60,951 nucleotides of DNA, from positions 36,788 to 97,738 of IMG/VR virus record IMGVR_UViG_3300003324_001329; one strand, 5' to 3'. The stretch comes from a virus. Below are positions 28,517 through 54,928 of this stretch, piece after piece (the stretch's first letter is position 1; every line of letters begins with the position of its first letter). The notes below the pieces were generated by a model, which was not told the origin of the DNA, did not search any database, and was given only the letters and a program-made list of their open reading frames with translations. The position numbers were made by a program, and so were the translations under genes.

Positions 28517-28544
28517 ACTTTACTGCCGCTGGGATCAGTAAAGT
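28517..28544. promoter_or_regulatory. Divergent promoter pair, inverted AGTAAAGT
   Basis: ACTTTACT (28517-28524) and AGTAAAGT (28537-28544) form an exact 8-base inverted pair separated by 12 bases. One copy points to the minus operon and one to the plus gene at 28580. The same motif occurs ahead of several other transcription units, so each half probably acts as the -10-type element of a promoter. Confidence 0.65.
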
Positions 28545-28579
28545 ACCAGCAATTGAAAACAATTGCCGGGGAAAATCTA

Positions 28580-29443
28580 TTGCCGATCTTAGCGAATAAA
28601 CTATTGGAGCAACTGCTCAGTATCTACCAGCGAATGCGCCGGTTCTTTCGCCAGGAAAATATCGCCCAACGGGAATTTGACAGCCTGTTGCGCGGACAAT
28701 TCACCGCCGCCAGTCTGCATCATCTGGCCCGACGGTGTGCGTGGCGGGAGGCCGGCTTGCGGCAGATCGCGGCAATAAACTGGCAAAATCCGGTGCATGT
28801 CACCGGCTCGCTGCCGAATTGCCGCGATTACGCCAGTTACGCCGAGGCGGTGGCGGCCTATCCGCACGTGCGGGCGGATTATCAGCAAATTCTCAGTGAT
28901 AATATCGCCGGGCCGTTGGTGATGCAGGCGGAAATCGGCTTCCGCGTGCTGGATAGTGGCGGAAAAATATTCAATATTCATTTTCATGCCATTGTCGAGG
29001 CCAAGGAATATGAAAAATTCAAGGAAAATACCCGCCAGTGGCGGCAGGGCCGGCAGCCAAATAATTGGGCCTTGTTGAGCCGCAAGGTAGCGCGGCGGCG
29101 GGGTGGGCAACCAAATGGCGAATACGTGGCGAATTTAGCCAATTATTTTAATAAATTCACCGTACGGGAAGCGGATAATCGCACCCGGCATAAGGGATTT
29201 CTCCCCTGGCCGGAACTGACGGTAGAAATTGATCGCGAGTTGTTTATCCGCGGTGGCAAGCCGCGGCGGATTAATAAATTCTGGCGCAATATTCTGGCGC
29301 AATTAAAACGCTGGGAAATATTCGAATTAACCCAGACCAAGCAATATTATCCCACAAGCTACAATATAGAACCTAATCAGACCAGCCTGGTTTTATTGTT
29401 TTATCAGCTATTCGGACGGCCGCAAATATGGGACAGCGGATAA
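28580..29443 (+). CDS. HUH-endonuclease-like (Rep-type) protein, candidate
   Basis: 287 residues from TTG 28580, chosen because GGGGAA sits 5-10 bases upstream and the promoter element lies just before; the longer ORF start at 28475 lies ahead of the promoter. Contains 'PVHVTGSLPNC' (possible motif 1), 'FNIHFHAIVEAKEY' (HUH motif 2, His134 and His136) and 'NYFNKF' (Y-x-x-K, Tyr189 and Lys192). These occur in the order and rough spacing of rolling-circle Rep/HUH nickases. The C-terminus is basic ('RINKFWRNILAQLKRWEIFE'). Family inferred from motifs only. Confidence 0.5.
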   Translation: MPILANKLLEQLLSIYQRMRRFFRQENIAQREFDSLLRGQFTAASLHHLARRCAWREAGLRQIAAINWQNPVHVTGSLPNCRDYASYAEAVAAYPHVRADYQQILSDNIAGPLVMQAEIGFRVLDSGGKIFNIHFHAIVEAKEYEKFKENTRQWRQGRQPNNWALLSRKVARRRGGQPNGEYVANLANYFNKFTVREADNRTRHKGFLPWPELTVEIDRELFIRGGKPRRINKFWRNILAQLKRWEIFELTQTKQYYPTSYNIEPNQTSLVLLFYQLFGRPQIWDSG

Positions 29444-29725
29444 ATAACTAATAAAAATTGCCCTCGCCCCATGGCCCACCGGAGCTAGTCTGCCCAACGA
29501 TTAATTCCTGAGCCTACTTCCACGTCTATCCTAACACCGTTACACCTTACCAAATTTAATCATCTGGTGGGTAAGCTATTCATGTACTTATTTCCAGACT
29601 CACTCCATGGTAAATTGTACCGTGGTACCGTAGGCACAGTTCAATTTATAACCAGCAGTCATTCTACTGCACAATGTGGTGGGGAATCATCACCCAACGT
29701 CTAACCATTAAACTCGGAGGAAGCC
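29444..29725 (+). other. 282-base intergenic region after HUH-like gene
   Basis: No ORF. It contains a stem-loop at 29605-29625 (8-base arms with one wobble, 5-base loop) and an inverted CTTACC/GGTAAG pair (29546-29551 and 29570-29575). TAAATT at 29611-29616 is a weak variant of the TAAAGT promoter element. It ends with CGGAGGAAG, the ribosome site for 29726. Could hold a replication or nicking site for the preceding protein; that is speculation. Confidence 0.5.
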
Positions 29726-30058
29726 ATGAGTTTACACTTATTCTCCCGCCACAGCGGTATGCTGGACAACAGTTCCTCCCCCACTGCCCCCGAGACGATT
29801 GAATTACGTATATTGGATCACTTGATCGGCTACGCCCAGCATTTAGTGGTATCCGGTCATCAACACCAATATCAATCTGTCACTCTAACCGATCTTGGCT
29901 ACAAATTTCTCCACATCCGCCCGCGTTTATTAACCGGCCTGCGGCTGGATTTGCTGGTGGAACCCGGTTTGGCCAACCTCACCTTGTTTCTCTCCGATGA
30001 TAGAGGGTTGCTATTAACCGCCCGCTGTCAACGCGATTGGGATGCTTTGCCGCCGTGA
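29726..30058 (+). CDS. Hypothetical protein, paralogue of 30867 ORF
   Basis: 110 residues behind CGGAGGAAG. Shares with the ORF at 30867 a layout 'Y.SV.LTDLGYKFL...P', a hydrophobic 'LTLFLSDDRGLLL' strand and an ending RC..+W..L. Both look like small beta-rich domains. Function unknown. Confidence 0.6.
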   Translation: MSLHLFSRHSGMLDNSSSPTAPETIELRILDHLIGYAQHLVVSGHQHQYQSVTLTDLGYKFLHIRPRLLTGLRLDLLVEPGLANLTLFLSDDRGLLLTARCQRDWDALPP

Positions 30059-30071
30059 GTTTAATCACCTT

Positions 30072-30087
30072 GCGCTAGATGTAGCGC
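30072..30087. promoter_or_regulatory. Palindrome at -35 region, possible operator
   Basis: GCGCTA and TAGCGC, six bases each, with a 4-base centre, 15 bases upstream of the TAAAGT element at 30103. It lies where an activator or repressor would bind. Confidence 0.3.
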
Positions 30088-30102
30088 CGATAGTACTCAA
30101 GG

Positions 30103-30108
30103 TAAAGT
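30103..30108 (+). promoter_or_regulatory. TAAAGT-type promoter element
   Basis: GGTAAAGTAC motif between genes 29726 and 30174. The expected start (~7 bases downstream) falls in the 5' arm of the terminator hairpin that follows, so new transcripts would lack a full hairpin while read-through transcripts would stop. Confidence 0.5.
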
Positions 30109-30111
30109 ACA

Positions 30112-30141
30112 CCGGGTGGTAACGTCATCACCCGGTTTTTT
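30112..30141 (+). terminator. Rho-independent terminator
   Basis: CCGGGTG (30112-30118) pairs with CACCCGG (30129-30135), followed by six T. Ends the 29726 transcript. Overlaps the start region of the promoter just upstream. Confidence 0.85.
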
Positions 30142-30173
30142 CTCTTGATGGGCCGATAGCTCTGAGGTACTCC

Positions 30174-30854
30174 ATGCTGCAAATCCCCGAAGTGCGTGAC
30201 GATTTTGCCCCGCTGTCCAGTGCCGCGTTTTACAAACTGCGCGAAGCGCAATTGCGTAAGCTGCGCCTGCCTAAATCCCACGCTGATAAGGACACCAAGC
30301 CCCGCCAGCCCGATCTGTCGGCAACCTGGTGGCGACCGGCTGGCTGGGTTAATAAGTATTATCCGCGGGCGTGGCTGCGCGTGGTTCGCTCTCAGTATAC
30401 CGAATTTGACTACCGGCTGCACCGCCACGGTTTTACCAAGCTGGAAGAATATTCCATCGGCCGGGTAATTGGCACCAATCTGGCATCCAGCCCGGAATTT
30501 AATGAGCATATCTGGATGCACCGCCACCAGGGTTATCTGGTGGTCAACCCCAATCCGCGCTGGCTGCAAATCCATTTCGTCGCCTCCCGCCACGTCAATG
30601 TTTATCTGCACACGCATTGGCTGATTTATTGCCGCGCCAAGGCCGAATTGCTGGAAACCGCCGAGCGGGTTGAGGCCGCCCGCACCGATTTGTTTTTCCG
30701 CCGTGAGATTTATGATCTGTTGCAGGAGGGCGTCGACGAGCAACGCCGCATCAGCGAACATTTGACCGCTCTGACCAATGCGGTGGATAAACTGACCGCT
30801 ACTGTCGAGGAATCCCGTCGAGGTGCGCAATTGGTGGCACCAACCCGGTTTTAA
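30174..30854 (+). CDS. Hypothetical protein with C-terminal coiled coil
   Basis: 226 residues. Residues 1-~150 are a mixed domain containing 'ATWWRPAGWVNKYYPRAWLR' and 'RWLQIHFVASRHVNVYLHTH'; residues ~155-215 are heptad-like (LLETAERVEAAR..., LTALTNAVDKLTATVEES), indicating a coiled coil. No family recognised. First gene after the promoter/terminator at 30.1 kb. Confidence 0.6.
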   Translation: MLQIPEVRDDFAPLSSAAFYKLREAQLRKLRLPKSHADKDTKPRQPDLSATWWRPAGWVNKYYPRAWLRVVRSQYTEFDYRLHRHGFTKLEEYSIGRVIGTNLASSPEFNEHIWMHRHQGYLVVNPNPRWLQIHFVASRHVNVYLHTHWLIYCRAKAELLETAERVEAARTDLFFRREIYDLLQEGVDEQRRISEHLTALTNAVDKLTATVEESRRGAQLVAPTRF

Positions 30855-30866
30855 TCGAGGTTTGCT

Positions 30867-31172
30867 ATGGTCAAGGACGCGCCTCCCTACCCGGTGATTT
30901 TATTTTCCCGTGCGATTGGAACTTGCGCGCGTTATCAACGCGGTGCTGGTGACACCGTGACTTATTATGACGTGCAGTTTAACGATTTGGGCCGGCAAGC
31001 CTTGCGTCTGATGCCGCTGACTTATATTTCTCCGCCTTATCAGATTTCCCTCAGTATCGATACTAAGTTGGCCGCCGCATATTTAATCATCATGCCGGCC
31101 AAGAACGATGCCGCCCATCCTCTGCGTTTTGGCTTGCGTTGCTCGATCAATTGGCCGGTGTTGCTGACGTAA
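30867..31172 (+). CDS. Hypothetical protein, paralogue of 29726 ORF
   Basis: 101 residues. 'YYDVQFNDLGRQALRLMPL' matches 'YQSVTLTDLGYKFLHIRP' of the ORF at 29726, and both end with RC..+W.VL/AL. A duplication followed by divergence, with the coiled-coil gene in between. Function unknown. Confidence 0.6.
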   Translation: MVKDAPPYPVILFSRAIGTCARYQRGAGDTVTYYDVQFNDLGRQALRLMPLTYISPPYQISLSIDTKLAAAYLIIMPAKNDAAHPLRFGLRCSINWPVLLT

Positions 31173-31203
31173 TCTGCCCCGGTTTAATCCATGAGGTTTT
31201 GCC

Positions 31204-31539
31204 ATGCCATCCGATCATCTGCCAACCCCGCCGTCGCCTGACGATGCTGATAACTCCAATAATAACAACGCGGATAATAATAACGACAACGCTGCCGCCT
31301 TGCCGTTGGTGTTGTCGCCGGATTTGGATGCCAGGGAATTGTTGATCCAATTGCGCGCTGGCTTGGCCGGGGCAGTGGAAAATTCCCGCCTGTTTCACAC
31401 CTTTCTCGAATTAAATATACACGAGCAAGTAGAGTTGCTGTTTTTAGTGTCCGTCGGCCATGGCGAACAGATTGATTTATTGGCCGAGGAATTATCCGCC
31501 CAGGTCGAGACTGATGCCGCAGCCGGGCCGGACTGTTGA
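31204..31539 (+). CDS. Hypothetical protein, Asn/Asp-rich head
   Basis: 111 residues. Residues ~8-32 are Pro, Asp and Asn-rich (DNSNNNNADNNNDN), followed by a helical domain 'DARELLIQLRAGLAGAVENS' and an acidic end. No family recognised. Another member of the set of proteins with charged or polar disordered parts. Confidence 0.55.
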   Translation: MPSDHLPTPPSPDDADNSNNNNADNNNDNAAALPLVLSPDLDARELLIQLRAGLAGAVENSRLFHTFLELNIHEQVELLFLVSVGHGEQIDLLAEELSAQVETDAAAGPDC

Positions 31540-35523: not shown

Positions 35524-35535
35524 CCATTCCCCGCC

Positions 35536-35564
35536 GCCGGCGGTAAAGTAGTTTTACCGCCGGC
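35536..35564. terminator. 12-base hairpin after cellulase gene, contains TAAAGT
   Basis: GCCGGCGGTAAA (35536-35547) pairs fully with 35553-35564; loop 5 bases. It lies 12 bases after the cellulase stop and has no T run. Could terminate in both directions or process mRNA. The GGTAAAGTA promoter motif falls within it (TAAAGT 35544-35549), so it may also be a promoter for the next gene. Confidence 0.5.
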
Positions 35565-35582: not shown

Positions 35583-36557
35583 TTGAGCCATCCCGTTCGC
35601 AAGGCTCTGCTGGCAGTCCAGCAGGGCCATTATTTTTTGCCTGCCGAGCCGCCGCGCTTTCGCGTCAGTGGCTTGCCGTTTTGTCCGATTTTATTTGCCC
35701 TGGAAGCCAAGCAACCGCAGCGCAGCGTGGAATTTGAATCCGGGTTTTATTTTAATATTGGCCACGCCTTGCACAATCTGTGGCAAACCGTCGGCCCGCA
35801 CAGCCTGCCGGATGAATTGATTGGCGACTGGCAATGCACGCGGGTTTTGCAGGAAAGCGGCAACAAACGCACGAAGATTATTCACCGCTGCGGCCGGGTG
35901 CAGGAATTTTCCACCTTCAACCACGCCAAGCGGGCGGTTTGTCCGCACGGCAAAACCGATTGCGCCGATTATTTGACGTACAAGGAACTGGAATTTGAAT
36001 GGCACGGCCTGACCGGGCACACTGATTTTCTTTTGCGTGATAAACGCGGCCGCTACCATCTGGTCGATTTCAAGACCACCAGCAATTTTTTGTTCGAAAA
36101 GCCAAAATTCGCCATCCAGCAAGGCTATTATCCCAACCAGCGTTATTTGGAACAATTGCGTGCCTACGTGATAATGATCGAGGCCAAATATAATATCAAG
36201 GTGCATGATTACACCGTCGCCTACCTGTCGCGGGAAAAAGCCTTGGAAGTCGGGCGGGATAAAAAACCCGCCTTGCGGCTATTCACCTATCTGGTGACGG
36301 ATAAAATCCGCCGCAGCCAACGCAAGCGGCATCGCGAATATCGCCGGCGTTATCGCAGCGTGCAACGCTGGCTGGAAAATCCGACCCGGCAGGCTACCCG
36401 ACGCTTATATGAAGCGCGGCCGTGCCACACCCGCCTGGAATATCTCAACGAAATGGCGGTGCGGTTTCTCAGCAATCAGCCGTGCGAACACCACGCCAGC
36501 GGCGCTTGCTACAACGGCAAGATGGAAAAACATCTGCGCCGATTGGCGGTAAAATAA
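35583..36557 (+). CDS. PD-(D/E)XK nuclease, RecB/Cas4-like
   Basis: 324 residues from TTG 35583 (GAGG upstream). 'GLTGHTDFLLRDKRGRYHLV' followed by 'DFKTTSNF' gives the G-x-x-D...D-F-K-T catalytic motif, with 'IQQGYYPNQRYLEQLRAYVI' as the Q-x-x-x-Y helix. Cys residues at 'GLPFCP' and near the C-terminus ('NQPCEHHASGACYNG') could bind a metal or Fe-S cluster, as in Cas4/AddB. Likely an exonuclease for recombination or DNA processing. Confidence 0.78.
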   Translation: MSHPVRKALLAVQQGHYFLPAEPPRFRVSGLPFCPILFALEAKQPQRSVEFESGFYFNIGHALHNLWQTVGPHSLPDELIGDWQCTRVLQESGNKRTKIIHRCGRVQEFSTFNHAKRAVCPHGKTDCADYLTYKELEFEWHGLTGHTDFLLRDKRGRYHLVDFKTTSNFLFEKPKFAIQQGYYPNQRYLEQLRAYVIMIEAKYNIKVHDYTVAYLSREKALEVGRDKKPALRLFTYLVTDKIRRSQRKRHREYRRRYRSVQRWLENPTRQATRRLYEARPCHTRLEYLNEMAVRFLSNQPCEHHASGACYNGKMEKHLRRLAVK

Positions 36558-36577: not shown

Positions 36578-37243
36578 ATGTCGCAACGCTTTCAGTTGCC
36601 GCTGCGCCGCAGCATGGACCCGCCGCTGGCCGGGGCGGGGGTATTATCCGACGCCGAATTGTTGAAGCTGTATTATCAAAACAACGGCGAGCCGCTGTTT
36701 CCGTTTTTTGTCAACCAACGCAGCGAGCGCGGTCTGCCCTCGTACGGCTTGGGGCCTTGCACCTACGATATTCGCCTGGATTATAAATTCCGCGCCTTCA
36801 TTGATTTTTCCACCACCCAGGAACAAGGCCAGGATTTCCACCACACCATCGATATCATGGACAAGGACAGTTTATTCACCGACGAATTTACCGTCCCCTA
36901 TAACGGCTATTTCGATCTGGCCCCTGGCGGATTTATTCTCGCCAAAGCCATGGAGTGTTTTCGCCTGCCGCGCGATGTGATGGGCCACGTCAGTGATAAA
37001 TCCACCTACGCCCGCTGCGGGTTGGCGTTGCAGAATACCATTATTGATCCCGGCTTCGAAGGAGATTTAACCTTGGAAATCTCCAACCACAACTTCCGCC
37101 CGATTCGGATTTATCCTGGCGCCGGTATCGCCCAGGTCAGTTTTCATCGGGTACTCGGCCACGTCAATCGTTCCTACGCCGACCGCTTCAACGGCAAAGG
37201 GGGAAAATACCACCGCCAGATCGGAGTCGTTCCGCCTAGATAA
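36578..37243 (+). CDS. dCTP deaminase (Dcd-like)
   Basis: 221 residues. 'CTYDIRLDYKFRAF' (N-terminal strand), 'VMGHVSDKSTYARCGLALQN' (substrate-binding S-x-x-x-R segment) and 'DPGFEGDLTLEISNH' (catalytic Glu region) are the Dcd/dUTPase-fold hallmarks; ends with 'GIAQVSFHR'. Converts dCTP to dUTP. With the uracil-DNA glycosylase (42931) and ribonucleotide reductase (39606), it implies phage control of dTTP supply. Confidence 0.88.
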   Translation: MSQRFQLPLRRSMDPPLAGAGVLSDAELLKLYYQNNGEPLFPFFVNQRSERGLPSYGLGPCTYDIRLDYKFRAFIDFSTTQEQGQDFHHTIDIMDKDSLFTDEFTVPYNGYFDLAPGGFILAKAMECFRLPRDVMGHVSDKSTYARCGLALQNTIIDPGFEGDLTLEISNHNFRPIRIYPGAGIAQVSFHRVLGHVNRSYADRFNGKGGKYHRQIGVVPPR

Positions 37244-38093: not shown

Positions 38094-38559
38094 TTGCCTG
38101 GATATGGCAATATCACCGGCCACCCAGCAGGCAATTGCCGCGATTCGGCAATTATCTGCCCAGCGCCCGTACGATCCGCGCGCCTTGATGCAATTGGTGC
38201 GGCAAAATCCTTCGGCGGTGAAAAACCTGTTGCAGCCGCATTCGCTGCATCTTCCGCCGCAAAATATTCTGGTGCAATACTGGCAGGAAATCCAAAATAA
38301 ACTACCGCTGCGGCATCTGGTGGTGTCGCTGGTGGATCAGCCCGGTCGTTATCTGCCGCCGTTTTTGCTGGCGCAAATCGCCAGTCAATTCGGCTTTGGC
38401 GATCAGGACATGGTGCAGGATTTCGTCACCACCGACAACAACGACCAAGCCGCCACCCACGCCATGCTGGCAAAATATAATATCCCGAATTTATTCGTTG
38501 AGCGCGCCTCACGCGGATTAATCGCGGTGCATTTGTTCCAGGTGATAACCATGGAGTAA
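38080..38559 (+). CDS. Hypothetical helical protein
   Basis: 159 residues from ATG 38080, overlapping the preceding gene by 14 bases. Helical ('ATQQAIAAIRQLSAQRPYDP', 'AQIASQFGFGDQDMVQDFVT'), with no known motif. Unknown. Confidence 0.5.
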   Translation: MPAIDCLDMAISPATQQAIAAIRQLSAQRPYDPRALMQLVRQNPSAVKNLLQPHSLHLPPQNILVQYWQEIQNKLPLRHLVVSLVDQPGRYLPPFLLAQIASQFGFGDQDMVQDFVTTDNNDQAATHAMLAKYNIPNLFVERASRGLIAVHLFQVITME

Positions 38560-38590
38560 ACTAGCAGCGTACCATTGAAGGTTATCTGCT

Positions 38591-39065: not shown

Positions 39066-39554
39066 ATGCCCATTCAACACGTCTCCACGCCGCGCAATCG
39101 CACCATCCCGCGCGGCGTTGTGGCTCCCCGGCCGGAGCCGGTTTCATTACGCAAAGCCTTGATGGCGGCGCGCGGCACCGTCGATTGGAAAAATTCCAAG
39201 TGGGTGCGGGTCTCGCGCGTGGTACAATTATCTGACAATACCCGGCGTAAAGTATTAAGGTGCGAGACTATCACCGAAAAACCCAACACGCCGCCGGAAC
39301 GTGGGCATTTCTGTTCCTTCCGCCCGCTCGATCCTGCCTACACGGGCGCCCTGTCCAAATGTCCAGCAATTGTTTTTGATTGCAATTGCCATCGCTGGTT
39401 ATTTGTCTGGGAATTTGCCATGTTTTATCGCGGAGCAGCCCGCTTACTGCGTTCCAACGGCGAATATCCCGAAGTTACTAATCCCCGCCTCAACCTGGGC
39501 ATTTGCAAGCATCTGATCGTCGGCGCCCAGGCGCTTATCAGCCGGCGCATCTAA
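39066..39554 (+). CDS. Cys-rich SWIM-like phage protein
   Basis: 162 residues. The second half 'LSKCPAIVFDCNCHRWLFVW' ... 'LNLGICKHLIVGAQALI' contains C-x6-C-x-C...C-x-H, a SWIM-type zinc-binding pattern. A similar 'C..i...C.C..+.f..e......L' protein is, from memory, frequent in phages. Might bind DNA or protein. Lies just upstream of the reductase gene. Confidence 0.55.
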   Translation: MPIQHVSTPRNRTIPRGVVAPRPEPVSLRKALMAARGTVDWKNSKWVRVSRVVQLSDNTRRKVLRCETITEKPNTPPERGHFCSFRPLDPAYTGALSKCPAIVFDCNCHRWLFVWEFAMFYRGAARLLRSNGEYPEVTNPRLNLGICKHLIVGAQALISRRI

Positions 39555-39605: not shown

Positions 39606-41993
39606 ATGCCTGCTTTCGACAACCCCAACGCCAGTCGCAGCCTGTCCGCTTACGCCAGCCACACCACGCGAGTTTATCAAGTACCGGAGGGGATGCCCTT
39701 ATCCGTATTCAATAATAAATATTCCCGTCGCAAAGCCAACGGCGACATGCAATCCTACGCCGAACGCATCAGCGAGGTCATCACCGGCAATTTTTTGCTC
39801 GATCCGCGCTGGCGCAACAACGACGGCGAAACCCAGCCGAGTTTATTCACTGACAAGGGATTGGCGGCGGAATATCAACGCACGCTGGAATTGGCGGTGG
39901 CTGGGGTAATTCCTACCTCCGGGCGGCATTTGCAGAACGGCGATCACGAGCAGCCGAACAAGATTATGGAATTATTCACCAATTGCTCGACGGCGATGTT
40001 TTCCTTCATGTTGTTTCGTTTATTGCTGCGCGGCTCCGGGGTAGGACGGGATTATTCCTCCGCCTGCTGCCGGGTTGATTGGAATAATATGCCGAACCTC
40101 CGCCTGGTACTGGACGAAACCCATCCGGATTTCAATGCGGTGGAATTTAATGGTTATTTCGATGCCAAGCGTGATGCCCAGCACAAATATGACAGCGATT
40201 CCGAGATGGTGCGCTGGTTCACCGTGGAAGATTCCCGCGAAGGCTGGGTCAAGTGCGTGGAAATATTAGAAACCGCCGCGTGGCAGGGCAAGCATCGCGA
40301 CAAGTTATTTATTTTTGATTTTTCCCAGGTGCGTCCGGCTGGCGCCCCGATTATGGGTTTGCAGGGTCGTCCGGCTTCCGGGCCGCTGGCATTAATGCGC
40401 GCGTTGGCGAAAATCGCCTCAATCAAAGGCACCGACATGAAACCGTGGCGGCAAGCCTTATTTATCGATCATTATCTGGCGGCTTGCGTGCAAATGGGCG
40501 GGGTCAGGCGATCCGCTCGTATGTCGGTCAAGCATTGGCGCGACCGCGATGTGATTGAATTTGTCGATATCAAGCGCGGTGGTTTTCTCTGGTCGTCGAA
40601 TAATTCCATTCTGGTCGATGAGGATTTTTGGGACAAGGCCCGCTCCCCGAAACCCTCCCACGCCCGGCGGGTATTCGAAGCCATCGCCGCTGCCTCGTAT
40701 TTCGATGCCACCGGCGAGCCGGGTTTCATCAACGTCGATAAGATGAACAATAATAAGGACGGCATGGACCGCATCAGCCGCGACAATTATATCAATCTGG
40801 CGAATTATCCGGATTTGCACCCGCGCACCCAGGACATGATCGAAAATGTGCTGGGCCACGTGATGCAACTGAAAAATCCGTTCCTGACCAACCCGTGCGG
40901 CGAAATCGTGCTGGCCACCTACGGTGGTTATTGTTTAATCGGTGACGTGTGCCTGGCGCACGCGCATTCCAAGGCGGAAGCGATTGACGCGGTGCAATTG
41001 CTGGCGAAATTCCTGGTGCGGGTTAATCTGATGCGTGCGGATTATTCGGCCGAAGTCAAGCGCACCAATCGCATCGGCGTTGGGCTGACGGGCATTCACG
41101 AATTTGCCTGGACGCATTTCGGCCTGACGTTCCGCGATATGATTTCCTATCACGCGCACGCCTTCAAGCCGGCCAACGTGCATGATGGTTATATTTTCGA
41201 TCCCAAGATGCGTGACAAGGCGCGTCGGGTGCAGGATTTCTGGTTATTCATCGACAGCCTGCGCCGGCACACTGAGCGGGCGGCGGATGAAATTTCCCGC
41301 GAATTAAACCTCACCCCGCCGCACACCGTCACCACGATCAAGCCATCCGGCACTATTTCCAAGGTGATGGCTTGCACCGAGGGTTGCCATCTACCGGCCT
41401 TGAAGCATTATCTGCGCTGGGTGCAATATCACGTCAACGATCCCGATCTGGCGGAATTAAAATCCCGTGGTTATCCGACCCGCGATATCTCGGCCAAATA
41501 CCCCGATCATCATATCGTCGGATTTCCCACCAAGCAACCGATTGTCGATTTAATGGGCGCGGAAAACGTCATTACCGCCGATGAAACCTCGCCGGCGGAG
41601 AATTATCAATGGCTGCAATTGTTGGAGCGGTTCTGGCTTGGTGGCGAGCGCGGCAATCAGGTCAGCTACACCTTGAAATATGATCCGCAGCAAACCGATT
41701 TCACCGATTATATGCAATTAATCCTCGATCACCAGCCGCATACCAAGGTGTGTTCGGTGTTGCCGCAATCGGATTGGCAGGAAAGCGCGCGGATATTTGG
41801 GTATGTCCCCGAACAACCCATTACGGAAGCTGAATACCAGGAATTTATGTCGTTCATCACCAATCGGGTGGCATTCGAAAGCTACGATGACGAGGCGTTA
41901 AAATGTGAGGGAGGGGCCTGCCCCATTGAGTTCGATAACCCAACGAATCTCCGTAAAATATCCACGGAGACCAGAATCACTGTCGCGGAGTAA
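39606..41993 (+). CDS. nrdJ: Ribonucleotide reductase, class II (B12-dependent) type
   Basis: 795 residues. Catalytic Cys431 in 'NPCGEI', partner Cys127 in 'FTNCSTAM', and a C-terminal shuttle pair Cys767/Cys772 in 'CEGGACPIEF'. 'GTISKVMACTEGCHLPA' is also conserved. No NrdB gene and no intein are visible. The C-x4-C tail and lack of a radical-generating small subunit fit the adenosylcobalamin-dependent class II enzyme. Makes dNTP precursors independently of oxygen; the host or medium must supply B12. Confidence 0.87.
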   Translation: MPAFDNPNASRSLSAYASHTTRVYQVPEGMPLSVFNNKYSRRKANGDMQSYAERISEVITGNFLLDPRWRNNDGETQPSLFTDKGLAAEYQRTLELAVAGVIPTSGRHLQNGDHEQPNKIMELFTNCSTAMFSFMLFRLLLRGSGVGRDYSSACCRVDWNNMPNLRLVLDETHPDFNAVEFNGYFDAKRDAQHKYDSDSEMVRWFTVEDSREGWVKCVEILETAAWQGKHRDKLFIFDFSQVRPAGAPIMGLQGRPASGPLALMRALAKIASIKGTDMKPWRQALFIDHYLAACVQMGGVRRSARMSVKHWRDRDVIEFVDIKRGGFLWSSNNSILVDEDFWDKARSPKPSHARRVFEAIAAASYFDATGEPGFINVDKMNNNKDGMDRISRDNYINLANYPDLHPRTQDMIENVLGHVMQLKNPFLTNPCGEIVLATYGGYCLIGDVCLAHAHSKAEAIDAVQLLAKFLVRVNLMRADYSAEVKRTNRIGVGLTGIHEFAWTHFGLTFRDMISYHAHAFKPANVHDGYIFDPKMRDKARRVQDFWLFIDSLRRHTERAADEISRELNLTPPHTVTTIKPSGTISKVMACTEGCHLPALKHYLRWVQYHVNDPDLAELKSRGYPTRDISAKYPDHHIVGFPTKQPIVDLMGAENVITADETSPAENYQWLQLLERFWLGGERGNQVSYTLKYDPQQTDFTDYMQLILDHQPHTKVCSVLPQSDWQESARIFGYVPEQPITEAEYQEFMSFITNRVAFESYDDEALKCEGGACPIEFDNPTNLRKISTETRITVAE

Positions 41994-42272: not shown

Positions 42273-42291
42273 CTTCCGCCCACCGCGCCGA

Positions 42292-42297
42292 TAAAGT
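42292..42297 (+). promoter_or_regulatory. TAAAGT-type promoter element
   Basis: GATAAAGTACAC motif directly before the terminator hairpin at 42300. As at 30.1 kb, the expected start of transcription falls in the hairpin's 5' arm. Would serve the cupin gene at 42346 and those after it. Confidence 0.5.
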
Positions 42298-42299
42298 AC

Positions 42300-42329
42300 A
42301 CGGGGTAGCCATGCCGGCTGCCCCGTTTT
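42300..42329 (+). terminator. Rho-independent terminator
   Basis: An 11-base stem (42300-42310 with 42316-42326, one wobble), 5-base loop, then TTTT. Ends the reductase transcript. Confidence 0.8.
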
Positions 42330-42345: not shown

Positions 42346-42792
42346 ATGTCCGCATGGTTCGGAATAATCTGCCTGATTACCGCGCAAGCCGGGGAACTCC
42401 CGGCGCCAAATTTATTGCAGCAACCATTTTATCAAGACCCGCCGATTGGCGAAGTGCAGCAAGCCTATCCTGGGGTTAAATTTACCCTGCGGCAATTCAA
42501 AGCCATCACCGACGGCCAGCAGGAATTGCGGCAATATCTGGTGGAATTTGCCCCCGGCGCGCACACCCCCGCACACCGCAGCCGGGAAAATGAATTAGCC
42601 TACGTGGTGCAGGGAGAAATCCTGGTGCAGCAACAAGGCAAGCGAACGGTGTATAAAACCGGCCAGCATTTTATTCCGCCGCAAGACAGCGAACGGATGC
42701 TGGGCAACGCCTCGAATAAACAACCAGCGCAAATGCTGTTGACGGTATTGACTCCGAGCCAGGGTTATCACACGCGACAGGAGCGGCGATGA
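42346..42792 (+). CDS. Cupin-domain protein, probably exported
   Basis: 148 residues. Hydrophobic N-terminus 'MSAWFGIICLITAQAGE' looks like a signal peptide. Residues ~70-125 follow the cupin pattern: 'FAPGAHTPAHRSRENELAYV' and VQGEILV, then 'YKTGQHFIPPQ'. One usual His is replaced (H-R-S-R-E). Cupins bind metals or small sugars/acids; the role for a phage is unclear. Confidence 0.6.
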   Translation: MSAWFGIICLITAQAGELPAPNLLQQPFYQDPPIGEVQQAYPGVKFTLRQFKAITDGQQELRQYLVEFAPGAHTPAHRSRENELAYVVQGEILVQQQGKRTVYKTGQHFIPPQDSERMLGNASNKQPAQMLLTVLTPSQGYHTRQERR

Positions 42793-45002: not shown

Positions 45003-45036
45003 AGCGCCAGGGAGTTAATTCTCTCTGGCGCTTTTT
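45003..45036 (+). terminator. Rho-independent terminator
   Basis: AGCGCCAG (45003-45010) pairs with CTGGCGCT (45025-45032), a 14-base loop with internal complementarity, then a five-T run. Ends the 42-45 kb transcript. Confidence 0.85.
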
Positions 45037-45042
45037 CTGTGG

Positions 45043-45048
45043 TAAAGT
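45043..45048 (+). promoter_or_regulatory. TAAAGT-type promoter element
   Basis: GGTAAAGTAG directly after a terminator and 31 bases ahead of the NADAR gene start; a clear terminator-then-promoter boundary supports promoter function. Confidence 0.6.
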
Positions 45049-45078
45049 AGCTGGCGAGCCATTGGGGGAAAATCCATT

Positions 45079-45612
45079 ATGTCGGCAACTACCGCACCGC
45101 TTCGCTATTTCACCGGCGCCTTCGCTTTTTTGGACAATAATCATTTCTCCCCGATCACCGTGCGGGTTAAATACCACAACGATTGGCGCAAGCTGGCGTT
45201 TGGTTCCATCCAGCACGCGATTTGGGCTTATCGGTTGACCAACTTTGCCGATATTAATCGGATACGCTGCGAAGCCGATTTATCCTTGGTGCGCCGGCAG
45301 GCGCGTGTCTGCGCCTTGCGCGAGGATTGGTACGATAATCGCGAACGCATAATGCGCGATTTAATTGCGCAGAAATTCGTTATATTTCCCGAACTGTACA
45401 CCGAGAGTAAATACCTACCGCCATTGGCCTTCAGCTTGGCAGCGACCGGCGAAATGCGGTTGGAATTTAATTCCCCCTGGCCGGATGATTTATTTTGGGG
45501 TGTGGAGTCGGTGTTTGGCTTGCACCCGCGAGGGGAGAATAAACTTGGCGAATTGTTGATGCAACAGCGGGCGGAAAATAACCGTCTGCTGCAACGGCTG
45601 GATCGACGCTAG
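45079..45612 (+). CDS. NADAR (YbiA-like) ADP-ribose-processing protein
   Basis: 177 residues behind GGGGGA. Follows the NADAR/DUF1768 pattern: an N-terminal 'F.F.N..FSPI' segment, 'SIQHAIWAYRLTN' (in place of 'VEHAYQA.K'), 'ADLSLVRRQARVCALREDWY', 'IMRDLIAQKF', 'SLAATGEMRLEFNSPWPDDL' and 'GENKLGELLMQQR'. NADAR proteins split N-glycosidic bonds and include enzymes that remove ADP-ribose from guanine bases. First gene of a transcription unit. May counter DarT-type toxins or act in NAD turnover. Confidence 0.8.
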   Translation: MSATTAPLRYFTGAFAFLDNNHFSPITVRVKYHNDWRKLAFGSIQHAIWAYRLTNFADINRIRCEADLSLVRRQARVCALREDWYDNRERIMRDLIAQKFVIFPELYTESKYLPPLAFSLAATGEMRLEFNSPWPDDLFWGVESVFGLHPRGENKLGELLMQQRAENNRLLQRLDRR

Positions 45613-46299: not shown

Positions 46300-47070
46300 A
46301 TGCCAAGAGTAAAAATTTATCAGGGGGATTGTCGCAAGATTTTGCGCCGATTGCCTACCGGCAAATTTGATTTAATTGTCACCAGTCCACCGTACGACGC
46401 TGGCAAGGAATATGAAGGGCAGCGAAATCTGCAAGCATATACGCAATTCGCGCGAAAATGGCTGTCGCGCATACCGCGATTGCTGAAACCGCACGGATCA
46501 TTGTGGCTCAATGTTGGTTATACAAAAATCGGCAACAATGAAACCCTGCCGCTGACCTATCTATATCATACGGTAAAACCACCGGAGTTGCATCTGGTGC
46601 AGGAATTGGTCTGGCACTTCGAAGGCGGCATGGCGTATAAAAAACGCTTCACGCACCGCACTGAACGCTGGATGTGGTTTGCCCGTAATCCGGATGCAGT
46701 ATATTTTGATTTGGATGCCGTGCGCGATGCACGGCTGAACCGCACGCAGGACAAGCGCAATAATCCGCTGGGCAAAAATCCATCCGATTATTGGTATTTC
46801 GACCGCGTGAGCGGTGGCACCGCTGCCAAGGCAGAAAAAACTGCCCACCCCTGTCAATTCCCGGAGCGGATGATACGGCGAATAATTCGCGCCTGTTCAC
46901 CGGCCAAGGGTCGGGTGCTGGACCCGTTCGGCGGCTCCGGTACTACCGCTGTGGTCGCGCGAAAACTCGGCCGCCGGGCTGTTTTGTGTGAATTGCAGCC
47001 GGATTATATTAAAATCATGCGCCAACGCCTGCGCGACAACGGTATCCGCTCGCGAGTTATTCGCCAATGA
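46300..47070 (+). CDS. DNA methyltransferase (N4-C or N6-A), copy 1
   Basis: 256 residues. 'FDLIVTSPPYD' (motif IV, TSPPY at residues 28-32) and, near the end, 'LDPFGGSGTTAVVARKLGRR' (motif I), the beta-class order (catalytic before SAM site). No restriction enzyme is adjacent. It ends in a 4-base overlap with a second methyltransferase. Likely protects phage DNA from host restriction. Confidence 0.88.
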   Translation: MPRVKIYQGDCRKILRRLPTGKFDLIVTSPPYDAGKEYEGQRNLQAYTQFARKWLSRIPRLLKPHGSLWLNVGYTKIGNNETLPLTYLYHTVKPPELHLVQELVWHFEGGMAYKKRFTHRTERWMWFARNPDAVYFDLDAVRDARLNRTQDKRNNPLGKNPSDYWYFDRVSGGTAAKAEKTAHPCQFPERMIRRIIRACSPAKGRVLDPFGGSGTTAVVARKLGRRAVLCELQPDYIKIMRQRLRDNGIRSRVIRQ

Positions 47071-47837
47071 CCAAGCTGGAATTGCATCGCGGCGATTGCC
47101 TGGAAATTCTGCCGAAGATTAAAGCCAAATCGGTGGATGTGTGCATATATTCACCTCCGTACAATATCGGCACGCAATATCATTCGTATTATGATAAACG
47201 CAGCGAGGCGGCTTATCTGGATTTCATGTACCGGGTGGCGGCGCAGGCATATCGGATATTAAAAGATGATGGTGCATTATTTCTTAACCTTGGTCACGTC
47301 ACTGCCAAACCGCTCCTGCCCTATCGGGTGGCAGCTTTACTTACCAGCTTATTCAAGCTGCAAAATGTTGTCGTGTGGGTTAAATCAATTACCGTCGGGG
47401 CAGACAGCCGCGGTCATTTCAAGCCGATTAATAGTCAGCGATACCTCAACAATAATTGCGAATACATCTTCCATTTCAGCAAAACCGGCGACCTGAAAAT
47501 CGACCGCCTCGCCATCGGCGTACCTTACAAAGATAAATCCAATATTGCCCGGCGTGGCCACAGCCAGGATAAACGCTGCCGCGGCTCGGCATGGTTTATT
47601 CCCTATCCCACACGCAAAAAGAAACTCAGCCATCCGGCAACTTATCCTACCAAACTGCCATTGTGGTGTATTAAACTGCACGGCAAATCTCGCCCACGGG
47701 TGCTGGACCCGTTCATGGGCTTGGGTGCCACCGGTATCGCCGCGTTGCGCTGTGATGCGCGCAAATTCATCGGCATCGAATTGGATAAAAAATATTTCCG
47801 CACCGCGCGGCGACGGTTGCATAAACGTCGGCAATAG
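47067..47837 (+). CDS. DNA methyltransferase (N4-C or N6-A), copy 2
   Basis: 256 residues, ATGA overlap with copy 1 and the same length. 'VDVCIYSPPYNIGTQYHSYY' (motif IV) and 'RVLDPFMGLGATGIAALRCD' (motif I). Recognition regions in the middle differ from copy 1, so the two probably methylate different sites or opposite strands of an asymmetric site. Confidence 0.88.
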   Translation: MTKLELHRGDCLEILPKIKAKSVDVCIYSPPYNIGTQYHSYYDKRSEAAYLDFMYRVAAQAYRILKDDGALFLNLGHVTAKPLLPYRVAALLTSLFKLQNVVVWVKSITVGADSRGHFKPINSQRYLNNNCEYIFHFSKTGDLKIDRLAIGVPYKDKSNIARRGHSQDKRCRGSAWFIPYPTRKKKLSHPATYPTKLPLWCIKLHGKSRPRVLDPFMGLGATGIAALRCDARKFIGIELDKKYFRTARRRLHKRRQ

Positions 47838-47880: not shown

Positions 47881-47927
47881 CGGCATTGTCGATCTTCACG
47901 CCAGCGTTAAGACAGCCACGGTACAGG

Positions 47928-47933
47928 TAAAGT
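47928..47933 (+). promoter_or_regulatory. TAAAGT-type promoter element
   Basis: CAGGTAAAGTACGC in the 130-base gap after the methyltransferases. TTAAGA 16 bases upstream could be a weak -35. Would drive the genes from 47.97 kb. Confidence 0.55.
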
Positions 47934-47968
47934 ACGCAGATAGCGCAATAAACTTAGGAAACCGGGCC

Positions 47969-51509: not shown

Positions 51510-51557
51510 CCCCTGCTATCCCACACCAGGGAATTAAATCCCCACCGCAACCGGCGG

Positions 51558-51563
51558 TAAAGT
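51558..51563 (+). promoter_or_regulatory. TAAAGT-type promoter element
   Basis: GGCGGTAAAGTGTAGG, 30 bases ahead of the start at 51593, in the gap after the sigma-like gene. Confidence 0.5.
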
Positions 51564-51592
51564 GTAGGCACGACTAGCATGGATCAACGGCG

Positions 51593-52030
51593 ATGGTTGA
51601 GTGGCGCATCCTGCCGCAATTCCCTAATTATATGGTCTCAACGCACGGCCACATTCGCGCCTTTTTGCCGCCCGGTCGCGCCGACCGCTATCAGGAAATC
51701 CTCCCGCGGCATAATCCACGCCGGCATCGTTATTCCGTGCAAGTGCGCGATTGGCGCGGCGACTGGCAGGATGTTTTATTGGCCAGATTAATTGCCCTGG
51801 CTTTCCTGGGTCCACCCGGCAAATCCGTCCTGCGTTATCGCAACGGCGATTATACCGACGTGCGGTTGGCCAATATTAAATATTCTACCGCGGTGCATAA
51901 ACTCACCCCGGAAATAGTACGGGAAATTCGCCGCAGCCAGCAATCAATTCATTCGCAAGCGCGTAAATACGGAGTAACACCCGGCACCATCAGCCGGGTA
52001 TTGCACCGACGGGCCTGGCTTCACGTCTGA
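51593..52030 (+). CDS. Degenerate homing-endonuclease-like protein (NUMOD4 + HTH)
   Basis: 145 residues. 'EWRILPQFPNYMVSTHGHIR' is a NUMOD4-type opening. 'LIALAFLGPPGKSVLRYRNG' followed by DYTDVRLANI is an HNH_3-like segment in which the catalytic His is replaced ('LRYRNGD' for 'v.H.nGd') and the N is R. 'LTPEIVREIRRSQQSIHSQA' then 'GVTPGTISRVL' is a helix-turn-helix. Possibly a domesticated DNA-binding protein. Confidence 0.65.
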   Translation: MVEWRILPQFPNYMVSTHGHIRAFLPPGRADRYQEILPRHNPRRHRYSVQVRDWRGDWQDVLLARLIALAFLGPPGKSVLRYRNGDYTDVRLANIKYSTAVHKLTPEIVREIRRSQQSIHSQARKYGVTPGTISRVLHRRAWLHV

Positions 52031-52049: not shown

Positions 52050-53069
52050 ATGGCGTTTACCTCAACTAAACCAATCACTACCCGCGAGCGCAAGCCGCGG
52101 CTCACCGATGAAGTGGAGGTTTTCGATTTCACGCAAAACCCGAACGAATGGATTGCGGTGCGTTATCTCGGCCCGTATAATTCCTACGCCCAGGGCTGGC
52201 TGACCATCAAGTTAAAAAATCCGCAAAAAGGCCGCAAGACCGTCCCGATTCCCAAGGTCTGCCTGGATTATAATCCGAAAACGCAAACCTTCGACAAGGA
52301 AATTTGCCCGTACCGCAAGGCCGGGATTTATATGCCGCAACGCTACATCGCCAACATGATCGTGCGCGATTTACAGGACGACAAGCCGCGCCGAGCCAAG
52401 CCGCCGACCCGCAAGGAACGCGAGCCGCGCCGGCTGCTGGACGATAAAACCCGCTGGCACATCAAGGATAAAAATTCCCGCAGTTGGACGCCGGTGCGGG
52501 TGCATGAAATGCCAGCCACGGTGGCGGCCAAACTGGCGGCGCTGTCGGAATTGAATACGGTGCGGCGCAACGGCAAAAAACGCGCCTACGATATAACCGA
52601 TCTGGATTACGGCATGGATGTGAATATCCGCTATAATCCAGACGCCGCCGGCACGGCGAAATGGGAAGTGCAGCGCGGCGAACGCACCAAATTGAGCCGG
52701 GAGGAACGGGAATATTTAATTTGGGACTTGGAAAATCTTAAATCCATCGCTCCGGAAAAGCGCCGGGAAGCCGAGGCGGAATGGGAGCGGATCGAGCCGG
52801 TGTGGGTGCCGGACAAAAAACGCGGCGGCAAAAATGATCGTAGCCGACGGGAGCGCGATAAAGATCGCGATGCAGATTCTCGTCGCCGTTCTCGTCGTCG
52901 GCGGGATCGTGATCGTCCGCGACGCGATAAAGAAATATCGACGCAAAGAAATCGGCGGCGTGTACGAGATCGTGCTGCTGATAATTCTCGGCAGCGCAAT
53001 CGTGCTGATTCTCGCCAGCGCCGCCGACGTAATTCCCGCGACCTGGAAAACCTCGATAACTTCGATTAA
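52050..53069 (+). CDS. Hypothetical protein with Arg/Asp-rich tail
   Basis: 339 residues. Residues 1-~250 are a folded unknown domain ('DFTQNPNEWIAVRYLGPYNS', 'KNPQKGRKTVPIPKVC'). Residues ~258-335 are almost only Arg, Asp, Ser and Asn (RD/RS-like). The tail region is shared in another frame with a membrane-protein ORF (52834-53115). Could bind nucleic acid by its tail. Confidence 0.6.
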   Translation: MAFTSTKPITTRERKPRLTDEVEVFDFTQNPNEWIAVRYLGPYNSYAQGWLTIKLKNPQKGRKTVPIPKVCLDYNPKTQTFDKEICPYRKAGIYMPQRYIANMIVRDLQDDKPRRAKPPTRKEREPRRLLDDKTRWHIKDKNSRSWTPVRVHEMPATVAAKLAALSELNTVRRNGKKRAYDITDLDYGMDVNIRYNPDAAGTAKWEVQRGERTKLSREEREYLIWDLENLKSIAPEKRREAEAEWERIEPVWVPDKKRGGKNDRSRRERDKDRDADSRRRSRRRRDRDRPRRDKEISTQRNRRRVRDRAADNSRQRNRADSRQRRRRNSRDLENLDNFD

Positions 53070-53115
53070 ACCGCCGGCGGGGCCGCAACCGCCGCAGGTA
53101 ATCGAGGATTATTGA
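52834..53115 (+). CDS. Two-span membrane protein embedded in another gene
   Basis: 93 residues, frame differing from the 52050 gene. Two clear hydrophobic segments ('IAMQILVAVLVVGGIVIV' and 'YEIVLLIILGSAIVLILASA') separated by 'KKYRRKEIGGV', then a Pro-rich tail outside the overlap. Third positions are C/G-rich as in other genes here. 236 bases overlap the Arg/Asp tail of the 52050 gene. Confidence 0.6.
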   Translation: MIVADGSAIKIAMQILVAVLVVGGIVIVRDAIKKYRRKEIGGVYEIVLLIILGSAIVLILASAADVIPATWKTSITSIKPPAGPQPPQVIEDY

Positions 53116-53152
53116 CCGCTACTAATTATCTGCGCTTAGGGGAGATTTAATC

Positions 53153-53374
53153 ATGGAATGGCTACGCAACACTTATTCGGCCAACGCCACCAACATCATC
53201 GCCGCCTACCGAAAATCCCGCCCCGGTCACGAAATAATCACTGGCGCTCCGAAACCGGGCAACGGCGAAACCGTGGAAAGTCTGCGCGCCAAGGATATGG
53301 TCGGGGTGTATGACAACGGCGAACAATTAACCGTCGCGGACGACACCGACACCGATCTGCCGCCGGCCGCGTAA
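53153..53374 (+). CDS. Hypothetical protein
   Basis: 73 residues behind GGGGAG. 'NATNIIAAYRKSRPGHEIIT', acidic end ('VADDTDTDLPPAA'). Its stop codon overlaps a TAAAGT element (53372-53377), inside the small hairpin GCGTAA/TTACGC. Unknown. Confidence 0.5.
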   Translation: MEWLRNTYSANATNIIAAYRKSRPGHEIITGAPKPGNGETVESLRAKDMVGVYDNGEQLTVADDTDTDLPPAA

Positions 53375-53460
53375 AGTATTACGCAAGCTATTAATCCCAG
53401 CCTGCATACTTTTGCCTACTCCTGCGCCGGAATTTACCGGCGCTGTCAGGAAGATTTGCC

Positions 53461-54903
53461 GTGGCAAAAACTCCGAAAGCCCGCCAGCGCCCCAGCGGTG
53501 GCGCCGGCAATAAATCGATGCTGCTGTACACCGGCATCCTCGATGGGATCGAAAAAGATTTCGATCTGGCGGCCAGCGAAGCCTCGCGCGACAGATTATC
53601 CTCCGGCTTGCTGGTGGTGGATTTAATATCCGGCGGTGGGCTGGTGCCCGGTATGGTCACAGTGTCCGGCCCCGAGGCTTCCGGCAAATCCACCCTGACC
53701 TTGACCGCAATTAAATCCGCCATGCGGTCAGATATCCCGATCATTAATCATTATGACGCCGAAGGCACCGCGCAATCCGATCCGGATTATGCCGCAGCCT
53801 GCATGGGCGTGGCCTCGCTGCGCGAAGTGTACGGAGAAAAAATCAACGGGGTGTGGCGCCTACCCCCACGGGTCAGATATTGGGACACCACCATTCTGGA
53901 AAAATATTTCAATTCGGTGGTGCGGACACTCAACCGCATTCCGGATAAAATGTACAGCGCCGAACGCAAACGCTGGTATTTGCGGGTAGCCCGTACCGGC
54001 CCGGACGGCAAGCGACAGGAAAAATTCCTCGCGCTCGGTGAAGCGGATGCCAAGCTGTCGGATAAACACTTCGCCTGGATACCGACCGATAATCCATATC
54101 CGCAGGCATTAATTGTTCCCGATAGCTACGTGACTTTTTTGCCCGAGGATGTGGACACCGAGGAACAAGCTACCAACGCGATGGCCGAACAAGCCCGCGA
54201 ATTTGCCAAGCATTTACGGCGCATCGTTGGTAAATTCCGGCGCAAGCAAGTGGTGGTGTTCGGGGTTAATCAAATGCGCGAGCGCCCCGGCGTGATGTAC
54301 GGCCCGACCACTTACGAACCGGCCGGCAATGCGCTCAAGTTATATTCCTCGATGCGATTTGCAATTAATGCCCGCGCAGTGCCGCAGAATTGGCGCCAGT
54401 CTGGCTCAAAAACCAGCCAATATTCGGAAGAAAATTCGGTCGAGGGCAACGGCGCCGATCAATACGCCTACAAGCACATTCGGGTGATTAAAAACAAGAC
54501 CGGCACCCCCTGGCAGGAAGGCTGGATCAGAATATGGATTAAGGATCGCCGGGGTAAAGGTAGGGGAGCCGATCCGGTGTTTGACACCGCGCAGTTTTTA
54601 TTGATGACCGGGTTGGCGCAAGTCAACCGTCGGGAGATTAAATTCGCCAAGGGGGATGAATTACCGGCGTTCGCTGGCAAGCGATTAACCTGGGACGATT
54701 TCAAGGCGCTGATTATTGCCGAGGAATATAAATCGCCGGCGGCGGTGGAGCGGGCGGGTAAACTGAGCAAGGGGCAAAAGGCAGATATGCGTTTGCGCCG
54801 GGCGTGTTTTAATCTGCTGCGCAACGGCAAGGCGCTGCAATTATTAAGCGACCAATCCGCCAGCCGGCACAAGGGCAAGGGTGATGACGATCTGGAAGAT
54901 TGA
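53461..54903 (+). CDS. RecA/UvsX-type recombinase
   Basis: 480 residues from GTG 53461 behind AGGAAG. Walker A 'GPEASGKST' (residues 70-78), Walker B region 'QVVVFGVNQMRERPG' and 'PAGNALKLYSSMRFAINARA', as in RecA loop L2. Between ~140 and ~235 lies an insertion relative to bacterial RecA ('KRWYLRVARTGPDGKRQEKF') probably on the protein surface. Basic and acidic C-terminal tail. Catalyses strand exchange with the Rad50-like system of the minus operon. Confidence 0.9.
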   Translation: MAKTPKARQRPSGGAGNKSMLLYTGILDGIEKDFDLAASEASRDRLSSGLLVVDLISGGGLVPGMVTVSGPEASGKSTLTLTAIKSAMRSDIPIINHYDAEGTAQSDPDYAAACMGVASLREVYGEKINGVWRLPPRVRYWDTTILEKYFNSVVRTLNRIPDKMYSAERKRWYLRVARTGPDGKRQEKFLALGEADAKLSDKHFAWIPTDNPYPQALIVPDSYVTFLPEDVDTEEQATNAMAEQAREFAKHLRRIVGKFRRKQVVVFGVNQMRERPGVMYGPTTYEPAGNALKLYSSMRFAINARAVPQNWRQSGSKTSQYSEENSVEGNGADQYAYKHIRVIKNKTGTPWQEGWIRIWIKDRRGKGRGADPVFDTAQFLLMTGLAQVNRREIKFAKGDELPAFAGKRLTWDDFKALIIAEEYKSPAAVERAGKLSKGQKADMRLRRACFNLLRNGKALQLLSDQSASRHKGKGDDDLED

Positions 54904-54928
54904 CCGGAAAGTTAAACCTGGATAAAGT
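54900..54928 (+). promoter_or_regulatory. Promoter TTGACC-17-TAAAGT
   Basis: TTGACC (54900-54905) and TAAAGT (54923-54928) with a 17-base spacer. It is the clearest case where the recurrent TAAAGT element has a sigma70-like -35 partner; it overlaps the stop of the recombinase gene. Confidence 0.6.

Follow-up and report, generated by a model that had tools for sequence, protein, structure and literature searches.

A short DNA element recurs between the genes of a 60,951 nt stretch of DNA, here called the window, which is part of the 97,738-base virus record IMGVR_UViG_3300003324_001329; coordinates given are window positions. The element reads [GA]TAAA[GC]TA, usually with a G in front, and its recurrence is a confirmed observation. 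The genes behind its copies encode a Cas4-like exonuclease, a NADAR protein, an HNH endonuclease followed by a single-strand DNA-binding protein (SSB), and a RecA/UvsX-like recombinase, and on the minus strand there is a block with clamp-loader and SbcC-like genes (Table 1). A gene for a putative phage sigma factor lies in the same window. The copies probably make up a class of promoter-like sites, and their most likely reader is host RNA polymerase carrying this phage sigma. Directly to the left of the window are 22 unread bases (record position 36766-36787), and the record looks like a gapped scaffold.

What is the evidence that the element is real? First, it is over-represented. GTAAAGTA occurs seven times in the window against a shuffle mean of 0.45, a count that none of 100 shuffles attained, and the rest of the record outside the window holds one further copy. 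Second, it lies between genes. Genes were called with our own script (139 on the record, with an intergenic share of 8%), and 137 of the 139 were kept for the noncoding and coding tallies; the two dropped open reading frames (ORFs) are weak, on the minus strand, score below 6 and overlap the sites at 35544 and 38556. Over the record, GTAAAGTA is then found 7 times in noncoding and once in coding DNA; with every ORF kept, 6 of 8 copies are intergenic (p = 7.6e-6). The second spelling, GTAAACTA, has 6 noncoding copies, two of them outside the window, and 1 coding copy. The original prediction, which proposed a recurrent intergenic TAAAGT element as a probable phage promoter class, would have failed had the motif been equally common inside genes; GTAAA[GC]TA is found 13 times in noncoding and twice in coding DNA, a 56-fold difference in density (p = 1.2e-12). 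The shorter TAAAGT gives 11 noncoding and 14 coding copies (8-fold, p = 2.6e-6) and the looser [GA][GA]TAAA[GC]TA gives 12 and 10, while TATAAT (5 noncoding, 80 coding), GTAAAT (5 and 54) and TGAAAT have no noncoding excess over the record.

Third, the element emerges from a motif search, as had been suggested. Expectation-maximization (EM) was run de novo on the DNA upstream of genes (66 regions); because a Shine-Dalgarno motif came out of the first runs, the 16 bases next to each start were masked and a site fraction of at most 0.25 was allowed. The top motif was ggTAAA.T, with a log likelihood of 61.9; six Markov controls, run with 8 seeds in place of 30, gave 15.1-21.7. Weaker spellings such as AATAAACT are among its 30 listed members, and some of the weaker ones may owe their TAA to stop codons. 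Among the 13 aligned sites, which were picked for TAAA[GC]T, the preceding base is G in 11, the base before that is G in 10, and the following base is A in 11. When the 4096 possible hexamers are ranked in the DNA sense-upstream of genes, with an order-1 model of that DNA as the reference, TAAAGT ranks 3 and GTAAAG 16 in this record.

All eight main sites of the original prediction carry TAAAGT, at 28517 on the minus strand and at 28539, 30103, 42292, 45043, 47928, 51558 and 54923 on the plus strand. Two of its four weaker sites, 35544 and 53372, are exact GTAAAGTA copies; the other two read TAAATT (29611) and TAAGGT (38950). Copies that it did not list are GTAAACTA at 38556, 55001, 55011 and 57669 and GTAAAGTA at 39247, the last within a gene having a PHROG match. 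That the sites are a probable promoter class is well supported by noncoding enrichment, sense orientation, placement before genes and the related elements in relatives described below.

The next called gene start is 29-117 nt downstream at 11 of the 13 sites, and 313 and 453 nt downstream at the other two. The sites at 28516 (minus) and 28538 (plus) stand back to back in a common 88-base divergent gap. At 45042, the element sits in the 46 bases that separate a terminator stem from a start codon, and transcription would have to start at or after the element because the stem ends 9 bases before it. At 38556, 53371 and 57669, the upstream gene ends in the TAA of the element, which doubles as its stop codon. 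An inverted repeat, GCCGGCGGTAAA...TTTACCGCCGGC (35530-35563), encloses the 35543 element, and a tandem GTAAACTACA repeat (55001-55018) shares a 330-base gap after RecA with the 54922 element.

Table 1. Copies of the element and the genes discussed with them (window positions)
Feature	Position	Strand	Remarks
Element AGTAAAGTT	28516..28523	-	31 nt before first gene of minus block with clamp-loader and SbcC-like genes
Element GTAAAGTA	28538..28545	+	41 nt before gene 28580-29443
Element GTAAAGTA	30102..30109	+	71 nt before gene 30174-30854; hairpin 30111-30136 starts 1 base after
Element GTAAAGTA	35543..35550	+	39 nt before Cas4-like exonuclease gene 35583-36557 (TTG start in ORF list)
Element GTAAACTA	38556..38563	+	TAA is stop codon of gene ending 38559
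Element ATAAAGTA	42291..42298	+	54 nt before gene 42346-42792; terminator-like hairpin 42300-42326 starts 1 base after
Element GTAAAGTA	45042..45049	+	Between terminator stem 45003-45032 and NADAR gene start 45079
Element GTAAAGTA	47927..47934	+	Heads run of plus-strand genes, sigma-factor gene last
Phage sigma factor (putative), 322 aa	50541..51509	+	PHROG 17569, E 1.3e-33; predicted sigma70 domain 2 fold at about residues 12-236
Element GTAAAGTG	51557..51564	+	About 35-36 nt before HNH gene that precedes SSB gene
HNH endonuclease gene	51593..52030	+	Between element and SSB gene
SSB	52050..53069	+	PHROG 15004, E 3.9e-42
Element GTAAAGTA	53371..53378	+	89 nt before RecA/UvsX gene; TAA is stop of gene ending 53374
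UvsX/RecA-like recombinase	53461..54903	+	
Element ATAAAGTA	54922..54929	+	Lone TTGACC at 54900
Tandem GTAAACTA pair (55001, 55011)	55001..55018	+	
Element GTAAACTA	57669..57676	+	Overlaps stop of 57091-57672; hairpin 57679-57704 starts 2 bases after

The suggestion that the element marks early or middle genes is only partly supported. The sites before replication and recombination genes (Cas4-like exonuclease, HNH plus SSB, RecA and the minus-strand clamp-loader block) would fit middle genes. Avoidance of the structural block is unproven because the chance of finding none of 13 sites there is 0.154 (14/78 upstream regions, 992/7392 nt); the block has no exact noncoding site, and the gene that heads it is preceded, at 73 nt and outside the window, by a weak GGTAAATT (EM posterior 0.68).

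Which protein could read the element? The candidate is the sigma factor, whose sole PHROG match at E 0.001 is 17569. It has relatives in 91 phage records at E 1e-3, 15 of which cover >80% of the query, and RpoD region 2 is hit (E 7e-5) by a profile built from ten sigmas of the family. An AlphaFold2 model from 8 sequences has a mean predicted local distance difference test score (pLDDT) of 61.8 and a predicted template modeling score of 0.60; residues 91-180 are best (79-90), residues 51-90 score 50-62 and residues 228-322 fall below 50. VIA-align places 215 residues of the model on sigma70 domain 2 (5yix; Z 13.8, root-mean-square deviation 3.5), with Z 11.6 to 1sig. Helical models can attain such Z values by chance, but the entries behind the rows listed are of sigma70 or RNA polymerase, in agreement with the profile and PHROG matches. 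In the 50 rows listed, the alignment stops at model residues 231-236 in 34, close to residue 448 of E. coli sigma70, and at 251-254 in 15. The NCBIfam sigma70-ECF match is below cut-off (E 0.0022). Pfam gave nothing for the sigma at 0.01, and Sigma70_r4 had no Pfam match in the record (controls matched 14/14), though Pfam misses region 2 here as well. The modeled structure and these matches suggest that the protein carries the sigma70-family domain 2 fold, which recognizes the -10 element, and it may lack a working region 4. A phage RNA polymerase was not found with PF00562/PF00623 (controls matched) or with PF00940, for which there was no matching control; the record may be incomplete. These jumbo-type phages are not known to have an RNA polymerase gene of their own.

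The order sigma-SSB-RecA, sometimes with small genes between, also occurs in the jumbo phages Lu11, PaBG, Motura, Yoloswag, GR7B, Peetri and PhiXhv; RHph has a homologous sigma but not this order. In the window, the HNH gene at 51593-52030 separates sigma from SSB, which are adjacent in several relatives, and it is probably a mobile insertion.

In the proposed mechanism, host RNA polymerase would exchange sigma70 for the phage sigma (50541-51509), whose domain 2 would recognize the element as melted -10 DNA with no need for a -35 contact. Transcription would start about 5-7 bases downstream of the element. Several non-structural units would be driven by the class, replication and recombination genes among them, and the unit that ends with the sigma gene itself probably would be too.

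Alternatively, the elements could belong to ordinary host sigma70 promoters as their -10 boxes, perhaps with the aid of an activator, the phage sigma serving something else. TAAAGT does resemble a -10 element, sharing 4 of 6 bases with TATAAT, and the 54900/54923 site scores as a sigma70-type site. There, the TTGACC that the original prediction pointed to is present with its 17-base spacer, but it is not common to the class: as a -35 partner for all sites it was rejected as a single case. The class has no shared -35 of the TTGACA-like kind that bacterial sigma70 promoters carry at 15-19 bases. The best TTGACA match at the 13 sites averages 3.15/6, against 2.80 at 3000 random noncoding positions, and in anchored logos from 10 phages, the summed information over -32..-14 is only -2.51 to 0.64 bits. 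Single columns exceed the threshold in 6 of the 10 phages, none of them common to more than two. Sigma70-like matches in the region are also near shuffle level (20 and 20 against 17.5 and 16.4 expected), TATAAT has no noncoding excess, and related elements recur in phages chosen by their sigma or SSB gene. Hence, the host sigma70 explanation is unlikely.

The related elements were found by ranking hexamers, as above, over whole or nearly whole records (100/317 kb and 160/169 kb for the controls 201phi2-1 and T4). The eight named relatives, Lu11, PaBG, Motura, Yoloswag, GR7B, Peetri, PhiXhv16 and RHph_N28_1, were all chosen via a sigma or SSB match. GTAAAT ranks (sense:antisense) 1 in Peetri (20:8), 2 in GR7B (31:9) and Motura (15:0), 3 in Lu11 (23:5), and 5 in PhiXhv16 (15:2), RHph_N28_1 (21:4) and Yoloswag (27:10), and GTAAAC ranks 3 in PaBG (17:3). 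GTAAAG, at 7:3 in the present record, ranks 19 (6:1) in the IMG/VR record of locus L042, a record retained after its counts had been viewed. In five unrelated controls, the best of GTAAAT/G/C ranks 111 (T7), 530 (201phi2-1), 1215 (lambda), 1299 (T4) and 1876 (P1). The ranking recovers T7 promoter words (CGACTC, 13:0), and in T4 it brings up GTTTAC in sense orientation (34:3), which we take to be the early promoter -35. Eighteen IMG/VR loci were considered, 11 with a sigma gene and 12 long enough for ranking; the best of the three hexamers ranks 2 in L039 (a PaBG copy), 60 in L036, 66 in L031 and worse in the remainder. Among 17 whole records, GTAAAGTA is at least about twice as frequent as its reversed pattern in GR7B (19:8), L042 (12:3), L031 (4:1) and Sen-NF (6:2), and is mostly no more frequent than it in the others (Lu11 5:10). 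TGTAAATA exceeds its reversed pattern in Lu11 (40:5), Yoloswag (34:10), GR7B (29:8), PhiXhv16 (18:3) and Peetri (6:1); in the control 201phi2-1 the ratio is 13:6, but without upstream enrichment in the 100 kb tested.

The elements of the relatives are also placed similarly. Median spacing to the start codon is 39-64 nt in 9 of 10 phages and 90.5 nt in the tenth. GR7B also has a back-to-back pair, its two elements 18 bases apart. An element stands at most 120 nt before SSB in Lu11 (58), Motura (63), Yoloswag (64 and 89), GR7B (45) and Peetri (39 and 100) and not in PaBG or PhiXhv16, making 5 of 7 where 0.015-0.053 are expected per 120-nt interval. With the looser GTAAA[TGC], it also precedes SSB in BcepSauron (55), HRDY3 (61) and JA29 (45) and not in NCTB (3/4), giving 8 of 11 relatives overall; RHph was left out, its SSB being located elsewhere. 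The SSB start in our window has no element within 120 nt, the nearest one preceding the intervening HNH gene. An element precedes RecA in the present record, BcepSauron and NCTB, and in none of the first seven relatives; it precedes the sigma gene in Lu11 (1 of 8 relatives) and JA29 (1 of the 4 later ones), and not here. The records of Sen-NF (L013, PV359490.1, a Salmonella phage) and Afa-NA1 (PV550095.1, an Alcaligenes phage) have identical match scores for sigma and RecA; in Sen-NF, the sigma falls with that of Yoloswag and coding sequences are annotated almost end to end. These records may need a check of their naming or assembly.

Could the elements instead be binding sites for a regulator of the phage, whether it activates or represses, and not for a sigma factor? 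The tandem at 55001/55011 and the two back-to-back copies at 28516/28538 resemble operators. However, the strong sense orientation in the relatives (as in Motura and Lu11), the asymmetric core and the close spacing to starts make a regulator site quite improbable.

Several sites lie beside hairpins, and the elements, sense-oriented and upstream of genes, might likewise act in the RNA leader on processing, stability or translation. A stem abuts 5 of 22 loosely matched sites in this record (background 0.053) and 13 of 139 in the eight relatives (background 0.036-0.059). Attenuation or promoter/terminator overlap is possible at 30102-30136, 42291-42326 and 57669-57704. A class-wide 5' hairpin after the start was rejected: the 13 sites have a mean z of -0.50 against -0.56 for 108 control segments, and the same test gave means of 0.21 in Lu11 (8 sites), -0.60 in GR7B (9) and -0.45 in Motura (4). 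The lack of a common downstream fold, the distance to the start codon of 29 to 453 nt, and the terminator stem before the 45042 element, with the start that it demands, leave a role at the RNA level very improbable. Chance or base composition is scarcely credible: although the gene caller is home-made and AT-rich words can be more frequent between genes, the shuffles, the Markov EM controls and the AT-rich words without excess all speak against it.

Are similar systems known? The closest is in Lu11 (NC_017972), in which all 8 "putative middle/late promoter" features inspected read CTGTAAAT. They have the GTAAA core, are intergenic and without a -35, and the phage has a homologous sigma; one of them follows the sigma gene and stands immediately ahead of SSB. 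The spelling is AAAACTGTAAATA..GTA there and GGTAAA[GC]TA here; our record does not have the exact CTGTAAAT spelling, with TGTAAA upstream 0 times in sense and once in antisense. What the record does share with the Lu11-type class, taken as phages with a PHROG 17569-like sigma, is a sense-upstream enrichment of GTAAA[T/C/G] and a homologous sigma near SSB and RecA. The working analogy is the T4 late promoter, TATAAATA, which is -10-only and read by the phage sigma gp55 on host RNA polymerase; a T4-like phage, Aeh1, combines a diverged CTAAATA with a diverged gp55 (PMC1524935). The sites here do not have the TATAAATA core, and they precede replication and recombination genes, with no exact noncoding one in the structural block. 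In the portions covered of the PaBG paper, the sigma is reported to be restricted to the Lupandier group and Mieseafarmvirus, and no promoter motif is given (PMC7412058). An overview of jumbo phages describes group 2 phages as encoding two sigma types, one of them minimal, without a polymerase of their own (PMC7824862). Titles and abstract openings in literature listings gave no link of this sigma family to a promoter motif, and the claim to novelty is limited accordingly.

Several points weigh against a promoter class read by the phage sigma. The hexamers GTAAAT/G/C were fixed only after 36-100 kb of the eight relatives had been inspected, and the spelling in our record, GTAAAG/C, differs from the common GTAAAT. 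In this record, TTAATC and ATTATC outrank TAAAGT among upstream hexamers. In four later phages (37-41 kb), the best ranks are 38 (BcepSauron), 95 (HRDY3, where TGTAAA ranks 4), 111 (NCTB) and 200 (JA29), and the support from these phages is mixed. EM on 36-50 kb pieces returned another top motif in 5 of 9 (Lu11a, PaBG, Yoloswag, Peetri, PhiXhv16) and a GTAAA motif in the other 4 (Lu11b, Motura, GR7B, RHph_N28); in these pieces the best of the three hexamers ranks 2 in Motura, 3 in GR7B and RHph_N28, 8 in PaBG, 9 in Lu11b, 10 in Peetri, 43 in Yoloswag, 59 in PhiXhv16 and 240 in Lu11a. In the sigma-bearing IMG/VR records of L026, L037 and L040, neither GTAAAGTA nor TGTAAATA is in excess of its reversed pattern. 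On the protein side, identity of the sigma to its relatives is 18-23%; Foldseek puts sigma70 chains first, but at E 1.7e-3 even the best of them misses the E 0.001 threshold; and one VIA-align row, 9a8c, extends to model residue 316 (sigma70 residue 614), which would allow a region 4. Finally, the elements at 30102, 42291 and 57669 abut terminator-like hairpins that begin within 1-2 bases, so that the presumed start would fall inside the 5' arm, which is odd for a productive promoter.

Other genes in the window include a ribonucleotide reductase (PHROG 367, 39606-41993), whose best phage matches are from Rhizobium, Tunturiibacter and actinophages, some annotated as class II, and two adjacent N6/N4 DNA methylase genes (46300-47837) near the NADAR-domain gene at 45079. 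No RNA family was found at gathering score, and no tRNA.

What would reading of the element by the phage sigma mean for these phages? We consider the odds even for a broader proposal, in which the large-phage lineage of Lu11, PaBG, Yoloswag, GR7B, Motura, PhiXhv, RHph and the present virus shares a compact sigma, with domain 2 and without a -35-reading region 4. This sigma would read an element that consists of a -10 alone, in which the GTAAA core is common to all and the letter after it (T, C or G) depends on the lineage, and it would fire the SSB promoter and other replication genes. It would be a second case of the T4 late mode, here transferred to middle genes, and sigma and promoter would evolve together. 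If this is true, a phage sigma family of unassigned specificity would be tied to the DNA that it reads, and one expression class of jumbo-type phages would be mapped. Sigmas that are 18-23% identical, with element cores one letter apart, would form a natural experiment in the joint change of sigma domain 2 and the -10 element. The sigma/promoter pair is small and would be directly testable.

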